In this document: in pieces, positions 48,016 to 61,381 of the stretch
Position numbering within the stretch: the first letter of the stretch is position 1
How the letters are laid out: each line of letters starts with the position of its first letter
Source: Herpetosiphonaceae bacterium
GTDB lineage: Bacteria; Chloroflexota; Chloroflexia; Chloroflexales; Herpetosiphonaceae
Direction of reading: 5' to 3'
NCBI GenBank assembly: GCA_013538855.1
Contig: JABXJS010000087.1
Coordinates: forward strand, 1-64,000
Length of the DNA stretch: 64,000 bases
The notes under the pieces: model-generated
Seen by the model: only the letters and a program-made list of their open reading frames with translations
What the model was told of the DNA's origin: nothing
The model's database searches: none
Program-made: the position numbers and the translations under genes

Positions 48016-48873
48016 TTGGACACACACAGTTCAACGCATGCACCAGAGTCGCTGGAGCTGCTGATTCTGCCCGCTGGTCAAGACGTGGTGGTGGAGCTAA
48101 AGACGCCCGAGATCGCGGCGGCGGTGCGCGAGCTGCGCGAGTGGATCTGGCGATGCGGGTACCTGCCGCTGGGGCCGGCCTGGCTCAGCTGGAACGAGTG
48201 GGCCACGCGTGAGCTACATCAGCCGATTGCCCCGGTGTTTGCACCGCAGGCGGATGCCAGCTACCACGTCGTCGAGCGCAGCGAAGCGCTGGTCGTCGCG
48301 CTACCGATCACGACGGTGCAGCATACATTTAATCTTGCCGGAGTATACGATCTTGTGCAAGAATACGGACTAGACGCAATTGGCGCGCCGCTTATTCCAT
48401 GGAGTCCGAGCGTCACGGATGCGAGCACGCCCACGCTGGGCTATGTGCCGGTGGTGCCGCTTGGCACCAGCAGTCTCATCCCGATCTCCAGCTGGATTGC
48501 GCGCAAGGTGGGGTTTCAGGTGACGGCACCGACGCTAGGCGAACAGCTACCAAAGCGGGTTGCCTGGCAGCAAACCGGGCTGATCGTGCTACGCACGAGT
48601 ATCGCCATGCTGCTGGCGGCGATCGTTGCACTGCCCTACCTGGGGCTATGTGCGTGGAGCAGCGGAGTGCTGCGCGCCGGCCTGTTTCAAGAGATTGTGC
48701 TGGCATCGCTGATCCCCACAGGTGTGGTAATCTTGCTGATGCAGCTGCTGATCGGCGGGATCATGCTGCGCATACGCCAGCGCGCCATCGAGCGCTGGAA
48801 CAGCTTCTGGAGCCAGCTGCCCGATCCGGCCATTCTATTCCTGACTGAAGACGCGGAGGACGACGGTGTATAA
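48016..48873 (+). CDS. Unknown membrane protein, paralogue 1
   Basis: A 285-residue protein with a soluble N-terminal region of about 190 residues and two membrane segments near the C-terminus (about 200-225 and 235-260), ending in a soluble ERWNSFWSQLPDP tail. No known family is recognised. Landmarks shared with the next gene: GYLPLGPAWLSW early, GYVPVVPLGT in the middle, WNSFW at the end. The start is a TTG after CGGAGG, as no ATG is nearby. It overlaps the next gene by 8 bp. Confidence 0.65.
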   Translation: MDTHSSTHAPESLELLILPAGQDVVVELKTPEIAAAVRELREWIWRCGYLPLGPAWLSWNEWATRELHQPIAPVFAPQADASYHVVERSEALVVALPITTVQHTFNLAGVYDLVQEYGLDAIGAPLIPWSPSVTDASTPTLGYVPVVPLGTSSLIPISSWIARKVGFQVTAPTLGEQLPKRVAWQQTGLIVLRTSIAMLLAAIVALPYLGLCAWSSGVLRAGLFQEIVLASLIPTGVVILLMQLLIGGIMLRIRQRAIERWNSFWSQLPDPAILFLTEDAEDDGV

Positions 48874-49747
48874 CGATACTGCAATCGAAGCCCAGATCGC
48901 CCAAGCCATGCCCATGGCCACGCGCCTCCAGCTCCACGTGCTGCCAGCACACCAGGAGCTAATCGCGCCGCTGCCCACCGGCTACGTCGGCCCGGTGATG
49001 GCCGATGCCAACCAGTGGCTCAAGCAGCATGGCTACCGCACGCTTGGCCCATGGATGATCTCGTGGGCACCCAATGGCCAGCCACAGCTGCGGCGGCCGG
49101 TCAGTGGCGCGCTCAGAGCGGTGCGCGATAAAACGTTTCAGACGGTGGAGGTGCCCGAGCAGCTGCTGATTGCTGTCCCATTTGTCGGCTGGCCGATTCT
49201 GCCGCACAACTTCACTGGTCCGGTCACCTCGGTGGGGCTGGACATCACCGGCCCGCCGCTGCTGCTTGCGCTGACGAACGATCCGCCGACTATCGCCTGG
49301 GTGCCCGTGGTGCCACGCGGCACGCGCGGCCTCTACCCCAAGAGCAAGACCAAGCTGGGTCTTCAGCCGCGCATGCCCAAGCCAGGCCGCCGCATCAACC
49401 TCCAGCAGGCTTGGCTGGCGGCGCTGCTACAGGTCGGGCGCGTTGTCACCATCACAAGCTTTGGCTTTATTGGGCTGATGTCGTTCATCATGCTGATCGG
49501 CGTGCTTGAGAACGGCATTCAGCTGCTCTCGATCGACAGCGTGATCATTCTCTTCCTGCAAGGCTTCTTAACCTTCATATACAGCCCGGTTATTCTGGGG
49601 TCGTTGCTGGTGCTGTTGGTGATTCTTGGCCTGGTAAAGATGAGCGCCATGGGCAACTGGAACCGCTTCTGGAACAACCAGCCTGCGCCGCCGGAGCTGC
49701 TGCTCGACAGTCGCGGCGAAGGCAACGTGGGCGCTTGGCTCAGCTAG
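48866..49747 (+). CDS. Unknown membrane protein, paralogue 2
   Basis: A 293-residue protein with the same plan as its upstream neighbour: a soluble N-terminal region of about 190 residues with GYRTLGPWMISW and AWVPVVPRGT, two membrane segments (about 193-218 and 225-255), then GNWNRFWNNQPAPPE. Identity between the two is low, so the duplication is old. It starts with GTG behind GGAGGA, inside the end of the first gene. The two probably form a complex. Function unknown. Confidence 0.68.
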   Translation: MYNDTAIEAQIAQAMPMATRLQLHVLPAHQELIAPLPTGYVGPVMADANQWLKQHGYRTLGPWMISWAPNGQPQLRRPVSGALRAVRDKTFQTVEVPEQLLIAVPFVGWPILPHNFTGPVTSVGLDITGPPLLLALTNDPPTIAWVPVVPRGTRGLYPKSKTKLGLQPRMPKPGRRINLQQAWLAALLQVGRVVTITSFGFIGLMSFIMLIGVLENGIQLLSIDSVIILFLQGFLTFIYSPVILGSLLVLLVILGLVKMSAMGNWNRFWNNQPAPPELLLDSRGEGNVGAWLS

Positions 49748-50979: not shown

Positions 50980-51885
50980 GTGGAAGCGTTCCAGGCGTTC
51001 TTCGCCCGCCCAACCACTATCCGCAATATCATTACCTCGGCTTTGATCATCGGCACGCTCGCTGCTGTGCGCCACTTAAGCCTGCGCGTCGTGCGGGCGC
51101 GCGGCACCGATCTGGCGGTGATCTACCAGTGGCGTAAAACATCGCGCTACCTCGCGTTCCTGATCGGCGGCATCCTGCTCGTGGCGCTGTGGGTCGGCGG
51201 CGGATTCGCCTCGTACACCGCCACCTACTTTGGACTGCTCTCGGCTGGGCTAGCGATCGCGCTGCAGTCGCTGATTGTGAACTTCGTGGGCTGGGTGTTC
51301 ATCCTCTGGCGACGGCCGCTGCGCATCGGCGACCGTATTCAGATCGGCGAGCACGTTGGCGATGTCATCGATGTGCGCATCTTTCAATTTTTGCTGATGG
51401 AGGTGGGCAACTGGGTCAGCGCCGATCAGAGCACAGGCCGCATCATCTACATCCCCAACGGCAAGGTGTTCTCGGAGGCGCTGGCGAACTACACGCGCGG
51501 CTTTCAGCTGCTGTGGAACGAGATCCCGGTGCTGCTGACGTTCGAGAGCGACTGGGAGCGCGGCAAGCGCGTGCTGCAGGCGATCGCCGAGCGCCACAGC
51601 GCCGACAGCAGCAGCGCCGCCGAATATGTCAAGCAGGCTGGACGCCAGTTCTTGCTGACCTACTCGACGCTCACGCCAACCGTCTACACCAGCGTCGAGG
51701 CCAGCGGCGTGCTGCTGACGATTCGCTACTTGTGCCCCCCGCGCCAGCGCCGTGGCAGCGCCCAAGGTATTTGGGAGGATATCCTGCGCGCCTTTGCCGA
51801 TGACCCGGCGCTTGAGTTGGCCTACCCAACGCAGCGCCTGTACACCCTGCCGCAGGACGCGCCGCCGCGCCTGCCCAACGCTTGA
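50980..51885 (+). CDS. MscS-family mechanosensitive channel
   Basis: A 301-residue channel with two or three membrane segments (about 15-110). The pore-lining helix region is GLLSAGLAIALQSLIVNFVGWVFI, here quoted in part: GLAIALQSLIVNFVGW. The MscS beta-domain RRPLRIGDRIQIGEHVGDV and IYIPNGKVFSEALANYTR follows, then a C-terminal alpha/beta domain. It would open under membrane tension and release solutes. It starts at GTG 50980 behind AAAGGAAGG; longer frames run into the divergent gene. The DUF2270 gene follows 44 bp later. Confidence 0.85.
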   Translation: MEAFQAFFARPTTIRNIITSALIIGTLAAVRHLSLRVVRARGTDLAVIYQWRKTSRYLAFLIGGILLVALWVGGGFASYTATYFGLLSAGLAIALQSLIVNFVGWVFILWRRPLRIGDRIQIGEHVGDVIDVRIFQFLLMEVGNWVSADQSTGRIIYIPNGKVFSEALANYTRGFQLLWNEIPVLLTFESDWERGKRVLQAIAERHSADSSSAAEYVKQAGRQFLLTYSTLTPTVYTSVEASGVLLTIRYLCPPRQRRGSAQGIWEDILRAFADDPALELAYPTQRLYTLPQDAPPRLPNA

Positions 51886-51929
51886 CGCTGCTCATCCAAG
51901 CGGACTATAATGCATCAGGAGTTAGCAGC

Positions 51930-52685
51930 ATGCGCGCACCTCGATCACCGCAACAACCACCAGCCCCAGGAGTCATGGTGCATCTGTATCGTGGTCTGAT
52001 GGACCGCGCCTGCACCTGGCGCTCACGCATTGATGCACCAACCAACTGGGCGGTGGCGATTAGTGGCACAGCGGCATCGTTTGTGCTCAGTGACCCGCTG
52101 CATCACCATGCGGCACTGCTGTTGACGATTGTGTTCTGCTGTGGCTTCTGGGTCATCGAGTCGCGGCGCTATCGCTACTACGATCTATGGGCCACGTGGC
52201 TGCGGCTGCTCGAGACGGACTTCTACGCGCCGCTGCTGGGCCAGAACACACTGGCCGTTGATCAGTACTGGCACAAGCTGCTGATCAGCGATATGACCGC
52301 GCCTCACTTCAAAGTCTCACCGCTTGAAGCGCTTGGCCGCCGACTACGGCACAACTACCTGGCGATCTTTCTTTTTTTGCTGTGTGTTTGGTTTCTGAAG
52401 CTGCTGATTCATCCACAAGTTCCAGATAGACCTCGCCTCGAAACATTCGTCGTCGATGCCACGCTTGGCCCGTTCAGCGGCAAAGTCGTGATCCTGACTG
52501 TGCTCGCATTGTATGCTGGCCTGATCATCTTAGCCCTGAGTACCTTTCCACGTTGGTCGGGACGGCCAGAGCTGGTCGATCACGAGCGAACGCTGCGCAA
52601 GTTAGCATTGCCAACTGCGCAACCTGTTGGCCGACGCTGGCGACGACGACGGGTGCGGAGACACTATGGTAAAGCTCAAGACTGA
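51930..52685 (+). CDS. DUF2270 integral membrane protein
   Basis: A 251-residue protein matching the predicted membrane family DUF2270: MDRACTWRSRIDAPTNWAV, then WVIESRRYRYYDLWATWLR, and LETDFYAPLL, with four hydrophobic segments in two pairs (about 40-80 and 145-215) and a basic C-terminal end. Function unknown. Its start has CAGGAG. Its last 20 bp overlap the start of the GH57-like gene, so the two are likely translated together. Confidence 0.82.
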   Translation: MRAPRSPQQPPAPGVMVHLYRGLMDRACTWRSRIDAPTNWAVAISGTAASFVLSDPLHHHAALLLTIVFCCGFWVIESRRYRYYDLWATWLRLLETDFYAPLLGQNTLAVDQYWHKLLISDMTAPHFKVSPLEALGRRLRHNYLAIFLFLLCVWFLKLLIHPQVPDRPRLETFVVDATLGPFSGKVVILTVLALYAGLIILALSTFPRWSGRPELVDHERTLRKLALPTAQPVGRRWRRRRVRRHYGKAQD

Positions 52686-54126
52686 AACTGGTATGCGCCC
52701 GGCCCAGGTCATGCTGGTCTTGCAGGCGCATGCCCCATTTGTGCGCCAGCCAGGCCCCTCGGCCGTTGGCGAAGAGCCGCTGCACTCTTTAGTTGTCGAA
52801 ACCTACGTGCCGATGTTGATCGGCCTCTACGATCTGCTCGAACAAGGGCATACCGTGCATCTCGGGCTGGCGCTCAGCCCAATTTTGCTTGAGCAGCTCG
52901 CCGACCGCGTGGTGCAAAAACATCTGGCGCAGATGTTCGATCAGCTGGTCGAGCAGGCCGAGGCGGCTGTCGCGGCCAACCGCCACGATGAGTACGCCCG
53001 CTACATCGCGCAGTTCTATCTGCAGCTCCACGGGCGCTCACAGCGCGTCTTCGAGCGCGACTGGAATCGTGATATCGTTGCTGCTACCCGCACGCTGGTT
53101 GAGGCGGGCGTGATCGAGCCACTGCTGATGACTGCAACCAACATTGTGCCGCATCTGCACGATCAACTGACGCAGCGTATTCAGCTTCAGGCTGGCCTGA
53201 TTAGCGTGTCGCGCCACCTCGGCCGCCGTCCAGAGGTGCTGTGGGCCGCCGACGACCCGCTGCCGCCAAGCCTCATCCCCATGCTGCCGCCGCTGGGCAT
53301 TCATGGCGTCATCGGCAAGCCCGATACCACGCCCTCGTGGGCGGCGGTTGGCTGGCTCGATAAGCAGGCGGGCATCTGGGTGCTGCCACCAAACGAGCAG
53401 CTGGGCCTGCATGTGCGCTCGCTCACGCTGGGCTACCCTGGCGATGCTGTGTACCGCTCGGCACAGCCAGAGCTGTCCAACAACGGCATGCGCTACGATC
53501 CGTTCTATGCCTATGCGCGCGCGCGCCTGCATGCGCGTCACTTCGTGGCGGTGCTTGAGGACCTCCACTCGCGCACGCCCGCCGCACAGCAGGCGCAGCT
53601 GATGCTGGCCACGCAGATGGAGGTGTTTGGATCGGGCTGGTTCGAGGGCGGTATGTGGCTGCGCTCGCTGATTGAGGCGATCAATCGCTCGACGCTGCTG
53701 CAGCTGACCACACCCAGCAGCGCCTTGGCCGAGGCCAGCATCGAGCACGAGCTGCGACCTGCGCCAGTAGAGAATGGACTGATCGATGGCGCTATCCATA
53801 CCGCCGCCCTGCGCCTGCGCCAGGCGATCGCCAAACACCACCGCTTCGACGCCGGGCACGAGCGCGTGCTCAACCAGGCGGCGCGTGAATTACTGTTGGC
53901 TCAGTCAGGCGACTGGGATCGCTGGCAGGGCACGGCGGCGGCCGACTACGGGCTGGCGCGCCGCACAACGCATCTGGCCCATGTCCACGACCTCCTGCGG
54001 CTAGCCAACAGCGAGACGCTCGCGGCCGCGCAGCTGGCGCAAGTGTCTGCGCTGGAGGAAGCCTGCAACCCTTTCCCATTTTTACACTACCGCTTGTTTT
54101 CAAACATCGAGGAAGCGACTCTATGA
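52666..54126 (+). CDS. GH57-like protein with substituted catalytic residues
   Basis: A 486-residue protein with the plan of GH57 alpha-glucan enzymes: MLVLQAHAPFVRQPG at the start (family: HAHLPFV), then VETYVPML and LALSPILLEQLAD. Where active enzymes have WLPEC with the nucleophile Glu, this one has W193-A-A-D196-D197. Where they have D-x-E-LFGHWW with the acid/base Asp, it has Q317-M-E-V-F-G-S-G-W325. Both catalytic positions are therefore changed, so it is probably a pseudoenzyme that senses or binds glucan. Its stop overlaps the PP2C-like start (ATGA). Confidence 0.78.
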   Translation: MVKLKTETGMRPAQVMLVLQAHAPFVRQPGPSAVGEEPLHSLVVETYVPMLIGLYDLLEQGHTVHLGLALSPILLEQLADRVVQKHLAQMFDQLVEQAEAAVAANRHDEYARYIAQFYLQLHGRSQRVFERDWNRDIVAATRTLVEAGVIEPLLMTATNIVPHLHDQLTQRIQLQAGLISVSRHLGRRPEVLWAADDPLPPSLIPMLPPLGIHGVIGKPDTTPSWAAVGWLDKQAGIWVLPPNEQLGLHVRSLTLGYPGDAVYRSAQPELSNNGMRYDPFYAYARARLHARHFVAVLEDLHSRTPAAQQAQLMLATQMEVFGSGWFEGGMWLRSLIEAINRSTLLQLTTPSSALAEASIEHELRPAPVENGLIDGAIHTAALRLRQAIAKHHRFDAGHERVLNQAARELLLAQSGDWDRWQGTAAADYGLARRTTHLAHVHDLLRLANSETLAAAQLAQVSALEEACNPFPFLHYRLFSNIEEATL

Positions 54127-54935
54127 CCAATCGTGCGCTGCGCTGGTTTGGGCACACTCACCCACATTTTGATCAACCGCATATTGAACGCGCTGGGCCA
54201 CTTGTGCTCGGCTGCTATGGCGGCACCACCGCCGCCGGAGCCGATAAAAATGAAGACGGGGCGCTGCTGTGGTCAGGCGCAAACAACGCCTGGGAGTTGG
54301 CGCTGATCTGCGACGCCCACCACTCTGCCGAGAGCACCGCAATGCTGCTCGACATTTTCAGCGGTGCCTTCGAGGAGATTCAGCAGCTGCTAGAGCACCC
54401 GGCGGCCCACGCCCTACCAGAGCTAGAGCGGCTGGTTGAGCAGCTGCTGCGCGCGCCCGCCACCCGCGAGCGCTGCCGTCAAGTGCGCGGCGAGGCCTCG
54501 TGCCTGCTGGTGGTCAGGCGCGAGGCCTATGTGTGGTGGTGGTCGATTGGCGATTGTGTCGCCTACCTGCTGCACCCGATCTTAACGCAGTTTGGCCAGT
54601 ACGGCCTCAATCAGCGCGTGTTTTATCAGTGGATTGGGCATGTCAACACCTTTGATCGCGGCGTGGCCTGCCGCAGCTCAGGCGTGCAGCTGCTGCAGCC
54701 TGGCCCCAACATCATTCTGCTGGCCACCGACGGGCTGCTCGAGTGCGGCACCGAGCCGTTCACCAACCCGCAGTTTCTGTACGCGCTGTTCTCAGCCCCC
54801 GAGAGCCTGGAGCAGCGCATCGAGCTGGCCCTCAATGTGGTCAAGAACGAGCAGGGCCGCGATAGCGCCACCATTGTCGCCTGGGAGTTCAACCCAACGG
54901 CGCTCTACGAGCGCAGCGCTACTCCACAGCCGTAG
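54123..54935 (+). CDS. PP2C-like (PPM) serine/threonine phosphatase, divergent
   Basis: A 270-residue PPM-fold protein. GADKNEDGALLW fits motif 1. ICDAHHSAES replaces the usual DGHGG. WWWSIGDCVAYLL, ILLATDGLLE and GRDSATIVAWE keep the other metal-binding aspartates. At least four metal-ligand positions are therefore present and activity is possible. Cytoplasmic, no membrane segment. Coupled by ATGA to the GH57-like gene and so probably part of the DUF2270 unit. Its 3' end overlaps the convergent YceI-like gene by 17 bp. A kinase that might oppose it is at 58611-61253. Confidence 0.78.
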   Translation: MTNRALRWFGHTHPHFDQPHIERAGPLVLGCYGGTTAAGADKNEDGALLWSGANNAWELALICDAHHSAESTAMLLDIFSGAFEEIQQLLEHPAAHALPELERLVEQLLRAPATRERCRQVRGEASCLLVVRREAYVWWWSIGDCVAYLLHPILTQFGQYGLNQRVFYQWIGHVNTFDRGVACRSSGVQLLQPGPNIILLATDGLLECGTEPFTNPQFLYALFSAPESLEQRIELALNVVKNEQGRDSATIVAWEFNPTALYERSATPQP

Positions 54936-58338: not shown

Positions 58339-58611
58339 CTAGTAGATGCGATTGAAGATCCAGCCTTGGAACATCAGCGCCAGGCCGATCAGCGCCAGCG
58401 TTAGCCCAAACCCTGGCGGCACCAGCTTCAGCGCAATCCCAAGCGCAAACCAGGCCATCAGCAGCACGCCGCTGCCCCGGCTGAACAGCACGATCATCGA
58501 CTTGCCAGCCGCGCCGCGCTGCTCGCTGGGCACCCGGCGCACCCACAGCGCCATCGCCAGCGCGCCGCCAAGCATCAGCAGCACCGGTGTGCACGCAAAC
58601 AGCGCCCCCAT
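58339..58611 (-). CDS. Small three-segment membrane protein
   Basis: A 90-residue hydrophobic protein with three probable membrane segments (about 5-25, 42-62 and 66-86). No family is recognised. Its ATG overlaps the stop of the kinase gene (TGATG), so it is translated with the kinase and may act with it. Confidence 0.65.
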   Translation of the reverse strand: MGALFACTPVLLMLGGALAMALWVRRVPSEQRGAAGKSMIVLFSRGSGVLLMAWFALGIALKLVPPGFGLTLALIGLALMFQGWIFNRIY

Positions 58612-61253
58612 CAGAGGTTATCCAGCGCAGCTTGCAGCCGCTGCTTATCTTCAGGCCGCACAATCTCTAGGCCGTCGCTTAAGACGCCGCGTGCATCCGC
58701 ACTGCGACCTTGAGACTGGAGGGCCTCTGCCTTGCCTAGGTAGGCATCGGTAAGCGAGGCGTTGTAGCCCAGCCCTAGATCAAACTGCTCCAGTGCTGCA
58801 TCGGTCTCACCGAGCTTGAGCAACGACTGGCCTTTGCCCACATAAGCTGCGCCAATCGAGTTATCGATGCCGATCGCCTGATCATAGGCCTCAATGGCCT
58901 CGTTAAAGTAGCCCTGATACTGGAGCGTATCACCAAGGCCAACCGCCGCCTGTGCATACTGCGGATTCTGCTCCAGCCCACGCCGGAACGTATCCTCAGC
59001 GTTGGCCGGATCATTCAGGCTGTAGAGGTACACATAGCCCAGGTCGCTGTAGACCGACAAGTACTGCGGGGCCTGCTCAAGCGCCGCAGCGTAGTCCTTG
59101 GCCGCTGCTGTGTAGTACTCTTTGGCCTGATCAGCATCCAAGTTGTTGAGACCCAGCCACCAGTTGGCTAGGCCGCGGCCAGCTAGCCCCGTTGGCAGCT
59201 CCGCGTCGCGATCAAGGGCGGCGTTGAAGGACTCGAGCGCGTGATCGTACTCGGACTTGTAGACAAACATCCAGCCCTCACCAGCCCATGCCGGCGCATA
59301 GGTGTCATCAAGTTGAATCGCCTGCCGGAACGAATCCTCGGCCTTCGCGTACTTCTCGTCAGAGTCGTCTTGATTGCGCGCCGCCGACTGATAGCCCTGC
59401 TCGGCAAAAAAGTAGCCTAGCCCGGTGTGAATCATTGGCAGCTGGTTCTGCAGCCCCAGCGCACGGTTGAACTGGTCGATGCCATCCTGAATAAGGTTGA
59501 CCTGAAGATCGCCGCCGAGCGTGCTGCGCAGCTGATATGTCTGCCAGAGCACATAGCCCTTGCTGTAGTAGGCCAGCGCCTGGGTCAGCTTATCGCTGGA
59601 CTGCGAGAGATTGATCGCCTGCTCGCTGTCGTCAAGCGCCTGCTGCAGCAGCCCCTCGTCAGTGTAGAGCATCGCTGTGTCGGCGCGCACAATCGCCCGC
59701 GCCACATAGCCCTCGGGCGCGCCCGACTCCTGGCGCACGGCCTCCTCGGCTTGGGCCAGCGCCTCGGTGTACTGGAAATCCTCGTCGAGGATGAGGCTCA
59801 GCCAGGCGTGGGGCCGCGCCTTGTTCGGCGCAAGGTTGATCGCCGCCTGCGCGGCCTGCTTGGCTGGCTCAAGCTGATTGCGCATAAACTGTGTCATGGC
59901 CAGCCACTCCTGCGCCTCCACGCTGTCGGGCTTGGCCTTAGCAGCGGCGGCATAGGCTGTCGCGGCATCGGCTAGGCCGCCGGGGCGCTCAAACGCCTGC
60001 GCGCCCGCCGTCAGCTGCTCGCCGACATCGCCACCGCCAGCAAAGATAAAGTACGCGCCCACTGCCAGCACAGCGAGCAGCGCCACAAGGCCCAGCATAA
60101 GGCCCGTGCGCCGCTTCCCTCTCCCTGGAGCAATCGCCGCAGTCGGCGGGTAGCTCGCGACCTGCGGCGGGTAGCTCGCGGCCTGTGTCGGCGGATAGCT
60201 CGGCGGCTGCTGTGGCTGCGGCGGATAGCTCGCAGCCTGTGGCGGCGGGTAGCTCGCTGGCTGCTGTGGCTGCGGCGGGTAGCTCGGCGGGCGCTGAACA
60301 TAGCCAGGTGCGGGCGGACCATACGCGGGACTCATACTGGCAGGCGTTGGCCCAGCGACAATTGTCGCCTGTCCAGCGGTGTTGTGCGGCGGGATTTGAT
60401 CACCTGGACGCAGCGGCCGATACGCGCTTGCATCACGCAGCGCCTTGAAAAACGCCTGCGCAGTGGGGAAGCGCGCCTCTGGCTGACGGGCCAGCGCGCG
60501 CATCAGCACATCCTCCACCGCTGGGCTGATAGCTTGGTTGAGCGCTGATGGCGGCTTCGGCGCATGCATCACGCGCGCAAACAAGATCGACTGCGCATTC
60601 GCACCTTCAAACGGCGTGCCCTTGCTCAGCATCTCGTAGGCCATAATCGCCAGCGAGTACAGATCGCTCGGCGGGCCAACCGTGAGGCCCTGCGCCTGCT
60701 CTGGCGACATATACTCCGGCGTGCCCATGATCGTGCCCGCCTGCGTCAGGCCCGGCTGGCCCTCGTTGTTGCCGCGCGCGAGGCCAAAGTCGGTCAGGTA
60801 GACCCACGCATCGCTGGTCAGCATCACATTCGAGGGCTTGATATCACGATGGACAACGCCGTGGCGGTGGGCGTAGTCAAGCGCCTGCCCAACCGGCTCC
60901 AGCAGCTCCAGAACGCGCGCCACGGGCATTGGAGCCTCTTGGTCGATGACGCTCTTGAGCGTGGTGCCCTCGATATACTTCATTGCAATGAAATAGAACC
61001 CTTCGGCCTCGCCGATCTCGTAGATTGGCACAATATGCGTGTGCTCTAATCCCGCTGCGGCGCGCGCCTCCTGCTGGAAGCGGGCGATGTAGCTTGTATC
61101 ATAGGTCATCTCTGGCGGCAGCACCTTCAGCGCCACCAGCCGATTGAGATTGGTTTGATGTGCCCGATAGACAACGGCCATGCCGCCTCGCCCCAGCTCT
61201 TTATCAATGTGGAAATGGCTGAGGGTGCGCCCAATAAGAGAAGGATTGGTCAT
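58611..61253 (-). CDS. Transmembrane Ser/Thr protein kinase with external TPR domain
   Basis: An 880-residue PknB-type kinase. The kinase domain (about 13-275) has LGRGGMAVVYRAH, Lys43, HRDIKPSN with catalytic Asp137, and DFG at Asp155. A region of SYPPQPQQP-type repeats follows (about 305-370), then one membrane segment (about 382-403) and an external C-terminal array of TPR-like repeats (about 420-880). The architecture suggests that external protein contacts control phosphorylation inside the cell. The ATG at 61253 gives the standard kinase N-terminus; a longer frame would cover the tRNA promoter. Confidence 0.88.
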   Translation of the reverse strand: MTNPSLIGRTLSHFHIDKELGRGGMAVVYRAHQTNLNRLVALKVLPPEMTYDTSYIARFQQEARAAAGLEHTHIVPIYEIGEAEGFYFIAMKYIEGTTLKSVIDQEAPMPVARVLELLEPVGQALDYAHRHGVVHRDIKPSNVMLTSDAWVYLTDFGLARGNNEGQPGLTQAGTIMGTPEYMSPEQAQGLTVGPPSDLYSLAIMAYEMLSKGTPFEGANAQSILFARVMHAPKPPSALNQAISPAVEDVLMRALARQPEARFPTAQAFFKALRDASAYRPLRPGDQIPPHNTAGQATIVAGPTPASMSPAYGPPAPGYVQRPPSYPPQPQQPASYPPPQAASYPPQPQQPPSYPPTQAASYPPQVASYPPTAAIAPGRGKRRTGLMLGLVALLAVLAVGAYFIFAGGGDVGEQLTAGAQAFERPGGLADAATAYAAAAKAKPDSVEAQEWLAMTQFMRNQLEPAKQAAQAAINLAPNKARPHAWLSLILDEDFQYTEALAQAEEAVRQESGAPEGYVARAIVRADTAMLYTDEGLLQQALDDSEQAINLSQSSDKLTQALAYYSKGYVLWQTYQLRSTLGGDLQVNLIQDGIDQFNRALGLQNQLPMIHTGLGYFFAEQGYQSAARNQDDSDEKYAKAEDSFRQAIQLDDTYAPAWAGEGWMFVYKSEYDHALESFNAALDRDAELPTGLAGRGLANWWLGLNNLDADQAKEYYTAAAKDYAAALEQAPQYLSVYSDLGYVYLYSLNDPANAEDTFRRGLEQNPQYAQAAVGLGDTLQYQGYFNEAIEAYDQAIGIDNSIGAAYVGKGQSLLKLGETDAALEQFDLGLGYNASLTDAYLGKAEALQSQGRSADARGVLSDGLEIVRPEDKQRLQAALDNL

Positions 61254-61328
61254 CGCGGCCTCGCGGTAAGTAGTTAAAGATGTGAGGATCAGTTTACCGG
61301 ATTTTCGGCGTTTTGTGAACGATTGCAT

Positions 61329-61357
61329 TTGCGTTTCAACGCTGGCTATGCTATACT
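61329..61357 (+). promoter_or_regulatory. tRNA-Trp promoter
   Basis: TTGCGT (61329-61334), 17 bp, TATACT (61352-61357), 24 bp before the mature tRNA 5' end. Confidence 0.7.
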
Positions 61358-61381
61358 GACCCGCGCCAAACGAGACCACCT

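Follow-up and report, generated by a model that had tools for sequence, protein, structure and literature searches.

A branching-enzyme-like GH57 protein with a decayed active site, encoded with a PP2C phosphatase in Herpetosiphonaceae: a possible component of Ser/Thr phospho-signaling

What might be the function of a relative of a sugar enzyme whose catalytic residues are altered and whose gene lies between genes for a membrane protein and a protein phosphatase? The question is raised by a locus in the window, by which we mean the whole stretch of 64,000 nucleotides that was analyzed (Herpetosiphonaceae bacterium, assembly GCA_013538855.1, contig JABXJS010000087.1, positions 1 to 64,000, forward strand) from the 6.3-Mb genome of a filamentous bacterium of the order Chloroflexales. 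We compared the locus across the order, that is, in Herpetosiphonaceae (f1), a family designated f2, Roseiflexaceae-like genomes (f3), and Chloroflexaceae-like genomes (f4). The features of the locus are as follows.

51882-51911, + strand: sigma-70-like promoter candidate, TTGACG-18-TATAAT (11/12), covering the mscS stop and directly before the unit
51930-52685, + strand: DUF2270 integral membrane protein, 251 aa (Pfam PF10028, E 4e-53)
52666-52685, + strand: reading-frame overlap of 20 bp between DUF2270 and GH57L
52666-54126, + strand: GH57L, a GH57 branching-enzyme-like protein of 486 aa with a degenerate active site (PF03065, E 1.6e-8; PF09210 BE_C, E 7e-16)
53251-53253, + strand: nucleophile column of GH57L by alignment, Asp196 instead of Glu (W193-A-A-D-D)
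53614-53616, + strand: acid/base column of GH57L by alignment, Gln317 instead of Asp (Q317-M-E)
54123-54126, + strand: start/stop overlap ATGA (4 bp) between GH57L and PP2C
54123-54935, + strand: PPM/PP2C-type phosphatase, 270 aa (PF13672, PP2C_2, E 1e-10)
54312-54323, + strand: DAHH in place of DGHG, PP2C residues 64-67

The initial annotation of this DNA had joined the three genes by a 20-bp and an ATGA overlap, and both overlaps are present in the sequence. The arrangement is best explained as a translationally coupled operon, DUF2270-GH57L-PP2C, with a promoter candidate of its own. A scan of 4.3 kb should turn up one such site by chance, so the weight of the promoter candidate lies in its position and near-consensus quality and not in its presence. 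An MscS gene (PF00924) ends at 51885, 44 bp upstream of DUF2270, as had been annotated. We considered it as a member of the unit and rejected it, both on account of the separate promoter-like site before DUF2270 and because a gene for a GT2 glycosyltransferase stands in its place upstream of the unit in H. aurantiacus and H. giganteus. Elsewhere in the window, two overlapping genes at 48016-48873 and 48866-49747 (+ strand) encode related membrane-like proteins (28% identical, E 1e-24), for which no Pfam match above cut-off and no homologue in the related loci examined was found.

A conserved gene order had been named as support for the proposed unit, and the three-gene order indeed recurs across Herpetosiphonaceae rather than being restricted to the window. 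It was kept in 6/6 Herpetosiphon-like genomes searched and was intact in each genome of the family where it could be read. In the third genus (G003, locus L065), GH57L and PP2C are present and the contig ends just before DUF2270; GH57L was absent from one genome of the family of 75% completeness (G001). The Herpetosiphonaceae orthologues are 72-73% (DUF2270), about 48-51% (GH57L), and 41-50% (PP2C) identical to the proteins of the window, the 20-bp overlap was read at the same length in H. aurantiacus, and the ATGA overlap is recurrent across Herpetosiphon. Because order and overlaps recur at only 41-73% protein identity, the gene order is not a product of chance. The DUF2270-GH57L pair was also found in a Roseiflexaceae-like genome (G016).

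The product of the middle gene belongs to the GH57 fold family of (beta/alpha)7 barrels with a BE_C domain, with PF03065 and PF09210 above cut-off and a PDB profile match at E 3e-102. Its AlphaFold model (pLDDT 86) has GH57 branching enzymes as its best PDB matches in Foldseek (TM 0.80-0.82). There is one GH57L orthologue per genome in most related genomes, a match being found in 31/41, a count that includes partial matches and one genome with a true branching enzyme alone. In a tree of 53 sequences, obtained by a quick method and with the window protein on a long branch, 41 Chloroflexota sequences with a short segment after the nucleophile clustered apart from true branching enzymes (SH-aLRT 99). 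As judged by its sequence, then, GH57L is a member of a Chloroflexales clade of branching-enzyme-like proteins with a repeatedly decayed active site. In three outer members of the clade (L068, L095, and L098), which keep Glu and Asp, the gene comes immediately after one for a WecG/TagA/CpsF glycosyltransferase, a hint that GH57L was ancestrally connected with surface polysaccharide. A true GH57 branching enzyme is encoded elsewhere in the window's genome, on contig 265, and could provide branching without GH57L; this enzyme is 78-82% identical to its Herpetosiphonaceae counterparts, as against 48-53% for GH57L. A literature search on Herpetosiphon and glycogen returned nothing relevant.

How far has the active site decayed? 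The positions W193-A-A-D-D and Q317-M-E given in the annotation are numbered correctly, and both catalytic columns are changed in the window protein, the nucleophile by a conservative Glu-to-Asp substitution. A consistent loss of both residues, which the annotation had counted on, did not hold up: Herpetosiphon, within the corresponding operon, retains Glu and Asp, an outcome that the annotation had itself named as contrary to its idea, and the loss is therefore inconsistent; Roseiflexus likewise keeps both. The nucleophile column holds Asp in the window, Glu in Herpetosiphon, Ala, Ser, or Gly in f2, mostly Glu in Roseiflexaceae-like sequences, and Gly (Ala in one) in Chloroflexaceae, where no sequence has Glu. 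On the tree, this column must have switched between Glu and some other residue three times or more. The acid/base column holds Gln in the window, Pro in the third genus, Asn in two Chloroflexus sequences, His in one other, and Asp in the rest.

The decay extends beyond the catalytic pair. With residue roles taken from Table 1 of PMC6616209, the true branching enzymes of our set kept H10, H12, E183, D354, W270, W407, S466, and D467 wherever the position was present. No member of the GH57L clade retains W28; H10 survives only in Herpetosiphon and W22 only in f2. Herpetosiphonaceae proteins have W22, W28, and W270 replaced and the W407/W416 segment deleted; Herpetosiphon retains, along with Glu and Asp, the polarizing His H10 and H12, and Roseiflexus, with Glu and Asp kept, has lost H10, W22, W28, and W270. 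In the window protein, H10 has become Q20, W28 has become P38, W270 has become Arg, W22 is also changed, and the W407/W416 segment is gone. It thus lacks the Glu/Asp pair, His10, and the aromatic gatekeepers W28, W270, W407, and W416 that mark an active branching enzyme, and is a candidate pseudoenzyme. The short segment that follows the nucleophile might be taken to prove inactivity, but we rejected this argument, since the active AmyC has a similar one; AmyC and 92% of GH57 glycogen branching enzymes are without the flexible loop (PMC10346327).

The gene is nonetheless kept. When Herpetosiphon species were compared in pairs, dN/dS of GH57L was about 0.03; for Chloroflexus sequences, which are without the nucleophile, it was 0.07-0.18. 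These are simple Nei-Gojobori estimates, saturated at larger distances, and they cover Herpetosiphon and Chloroflexus. GH57L is under strong purifying selection in these two genera and, because dN/dS is low, is in them a maintained protein and not a decaying gene.

Could the protein still be an enzyme? It might in most lineages be an active enzyme of alpha-glucan or a related polysaccharide, of altered specificity and regulated by the phosphatase or kinase, the double substitution in the window being lineage-specific decay. Such an enzyme is favored by Herpetosiphon, whose copy of the operon encodes a GH57L with Glu, Asp, H10, and H12, and by the retention of Glu and Asp in Roseiflexus; nor need a short catalytic loop preclude activity, as Thermotoga AmyC shows (PMC6616209, PMC10346327). 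We nevertheless regard it as rather unlikely, given that the nucleophile has changed independently at least three times, and given the disappearance of the aromatic gatekeepers and of the acid/base polarizer even where Glu and Asp remain, and the fact that all Chloroflexaceae proteins lack the nucleophile Glu, yet that of Chloroflexus is under purifying selection.

The annotation had instead proposed that a dead GH57 domain binds glucan and acts as a sensor between DUF2270 and PP2C. The fold and the C-terminal BE_C domain are retained, D467 and H12 are kept, and W270 and W407 are mostly present in Chloroflexaceae, all of which would suit a binding protein. The groove of the Herpetosiphonaceae proteins, however, has been stripped of its aromatic platforms by the replacements and the deletion described above. 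Because these glucan-binding aromatics are lost, glucan sensing is the weakest step of that proposal, and we consider the sensor distinctly improbable.

The phosphatase, by comparison with the other members of its family, looks intact. DAHH does replace DGHG at residues 64-67, as annotated, and the canonical DGxG motif is absent from the Herpetosiphonaceae proteins, which have DAHH or DAHY, DAH being invariant. The metal-ligand aspartates D45, D64, D203, and D247 (of the NED, DGxG, TDG, and DN motifs) are invariant in Herpetosiphonaceae, as are the aspartates of NED, TDG, GD, and RDSAT. We therefore rejected DAHH as the sign of a dead phosphatase, DAH being a feature of the family and all metal-ligand aspartates being retained; the operon PP2C is probably an active PPM phosphatase. 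Outside Herpetosiphonaceae it was found in 1/301 Chloroflexota genomes sampled, and a search of plasmids did not find it. A stand-alone PP2C homologue in a distant Chloroflexota genome of another family (G318) has DGH.

DUF2270 matches its profile over positions 1-184 of 184 (E 4e-53), its predicted structure is of low confidence (pLDDT 41), and a literature search for the domain found no relevant paper. A second DUF2270 paralogue is encoded elsewhere in the window's genome. Second paralogues in f2 (L143-L148), read from ORFs, lie beside FAD-oxidase-like or PrsW-like genes. The idea that DUF2270 is always paired with GH57 was rejected on the strength of these f2 neighbors, so that DUF2270 appears to have several partners.

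The neighborhood of GH57L in the sister family bears on the role of phosphorylation. At 17 named Chloroflexaceae loci, GH57L lies directly behind, and on the same strand as, the gene for a transmembrane Hanks-type Ser/Thr kinase of the architecture kinase-TM-Pro/Thr-rich; at the remaining loci of the group the upstream sequence ends too early to show the position of a kinase. The annotation held that glucan binding is passed on by dephosphorylation: the link to Ser/Thr phospho-signaling gains outside support from these 17 loci, where the GH57L orthologue trails a kinase. Two Chloroflexus genomes have 13-14 kinase genes and 4-5 PP2C_2 genes, and the window's genome has 35 and 8. Because kinases and PP2Cs are so few per genome, two such neighborhoods are unlikely by chance: as a rough, after-the-fact estimate, chance adjacency to a kinase or PP2C is about 1-2% per lineage, and two in about six contexts is of the order of 0.3%.

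An orthologue of the Chloroflexus kinase (52% identical over 572 residues) is present in the window's genome, but its gene is on contig 24 and not near that for GH57L. In Chloroflexus, the GH57L-linked kinase gene is divergent from a gene for an FHA + Trans_reg_C protein, and so is the orthologue on contig 24. This divergent pair, common to Chloroflexus and the window's genome (L053:10395-12889 and L142:7937-10523), joins a Hanks kinase with a PT-rich tail to an FHA + Trans_reg_C regulator, an arrangement that we take to be reminiscent of mycobacterial PknH-EmbR.

Against a dedicated signaling role stand the other neighbors of GH57L: zinc-ribbon/DUF4190 genes in f2, an APH-fold kinase in Roseiflexus, patatin in one genome, and the WecG/TagA glycosyltransferase of the outer members. 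No Hanks kinase or PP2C was found beside GH57L in the Roseiflexaceae or f2 loci, and the kinase link of Chloroflexaceae and the PP2C link of Herpetosiphonaceae never occur in one locus. We count these observations against the reading of GH57L as a scaffold set out below, along with the intact Glu, Asp, H10, and H12 of Herpetosiphon. The three genes could instead be co-transcribed and work separately, neighbors varying between families as gene order drifts. At least six different GH57L neighborhoods in the order and outgroups fit this explanation, as do the DUF2270 paralogues and the PP2C homologue that stand alone elsewhere. It would leave unexplained why overlapping frames survive the deep divergence within Herpetosiphonaceae, why kinase-GH57L is kept across Chloroflexaceae, and why DUF2270-GH57L occurs also in G016; it has some probability but is, in our judgment, unlikely.

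The reading that we favor, tentatively and with somewhat less than even confidence, is that GH57L has for the most part given up catalysis and acts as a scaffold or regulator under the control of Ser/Thr phosphorylation. In Herpetosiphonaceae, GH57L would be made together with PP2C and the DUF2270 membrane protein, and, being cytosolic, would be tethered by binding to DUF2270. A Hanks kinase, in the window's genome probably one encoded elsewhere such as the contig-24 orthologue, would set the phosphorylation state of GH57L or of a protein bound to it, the co-made PP2C would reset it, and the change might alter a downstream carbohydrate or cell-envelope process. The broader notion, that in Chloroflexales a pseudoenzyme derived from a branching enzyme serves as a dedicated component of Ser/Thr phospho-signaling, partnered by a receptor-like kinase in one family and by PP2C and DUF2270 in another, is a more doubtful one.

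Martinovicova and Janecek (2018, PMC6037648) described GH57 "GBE-like" proteins that are missing one catalytic residue or both. Like GH57L, they are bacterial relatives of branching enzymes (tabulated at 520 aa), a few of which keep both residues; both are changed in the window protein and one or both in its f2 and Chloroflexaceae relatives. For the catalogued proteins no gene context or function is given and the main text names no Chloroflexi, whereas GH57L has a kinase/phosphatase neighborhood, and it is the present analysis that adds the tree of lineages and shows that substrate aromatics are lost. In the literature searched we found neither a role assigned to GH57 "like" proteins without catalytic residues nor a report of the kinase/phosphatase link, the extent of cleft decay, or the repeated losses in Chloroflexales. 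With TK1436, TT1467, PH1386, and AmyC of Thermotoga maritima, GH57L shares the fold, BE_C, and scaffold motifs, and with AmyC also the short catalytic loop; it differs from them in that the nucleophile, acid/base, H10, W22, W28, W270, and W407 of the window protein are changed or deleted. The kinase, PP2C, and FHA + Trans_reg_C partners are of the type ordinary in bacterial Hanks kinase/PP2C/FHA-regulator signaling; what differs is that the linked product is a pseudo-glycosidase and that kinase and phosphatase occur in the loci of different families. An analogue in manner of working is offered by the plant pseudo-beta-amylases BAM4 and BAM9, which belong to a family of amylolytic enzymes but are catalytically silent and have been retained to regulate glucan metabolism (PMC8774843); as beta-amylases they are not homologues of GH57L, and the likeness is one of analogy only. 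Were GH57L indeed a dedicated signaling component, it would be a bacterial counterpart of these regulators, and DUF2270 would gain a partner and a first functional setting; an enzyme that once acted on sugars may thus have been co-opted for the control of protein phosphorylation. Decay, selection, and kinase/phosphatase linkage together suggest a concrete role for GH57L that is testable in the culturable Chloroflexus and Herpetosiphon.

Finally, we note two further loci on the same contig. A gene for a kinase-TPR protein (58611-61379, - strand) lies on the opposite strand 3.7 kb downstream of the unit, and beyond the window, at contig positions 72832-74651, a PP2C gene adjoins a kinase gene.
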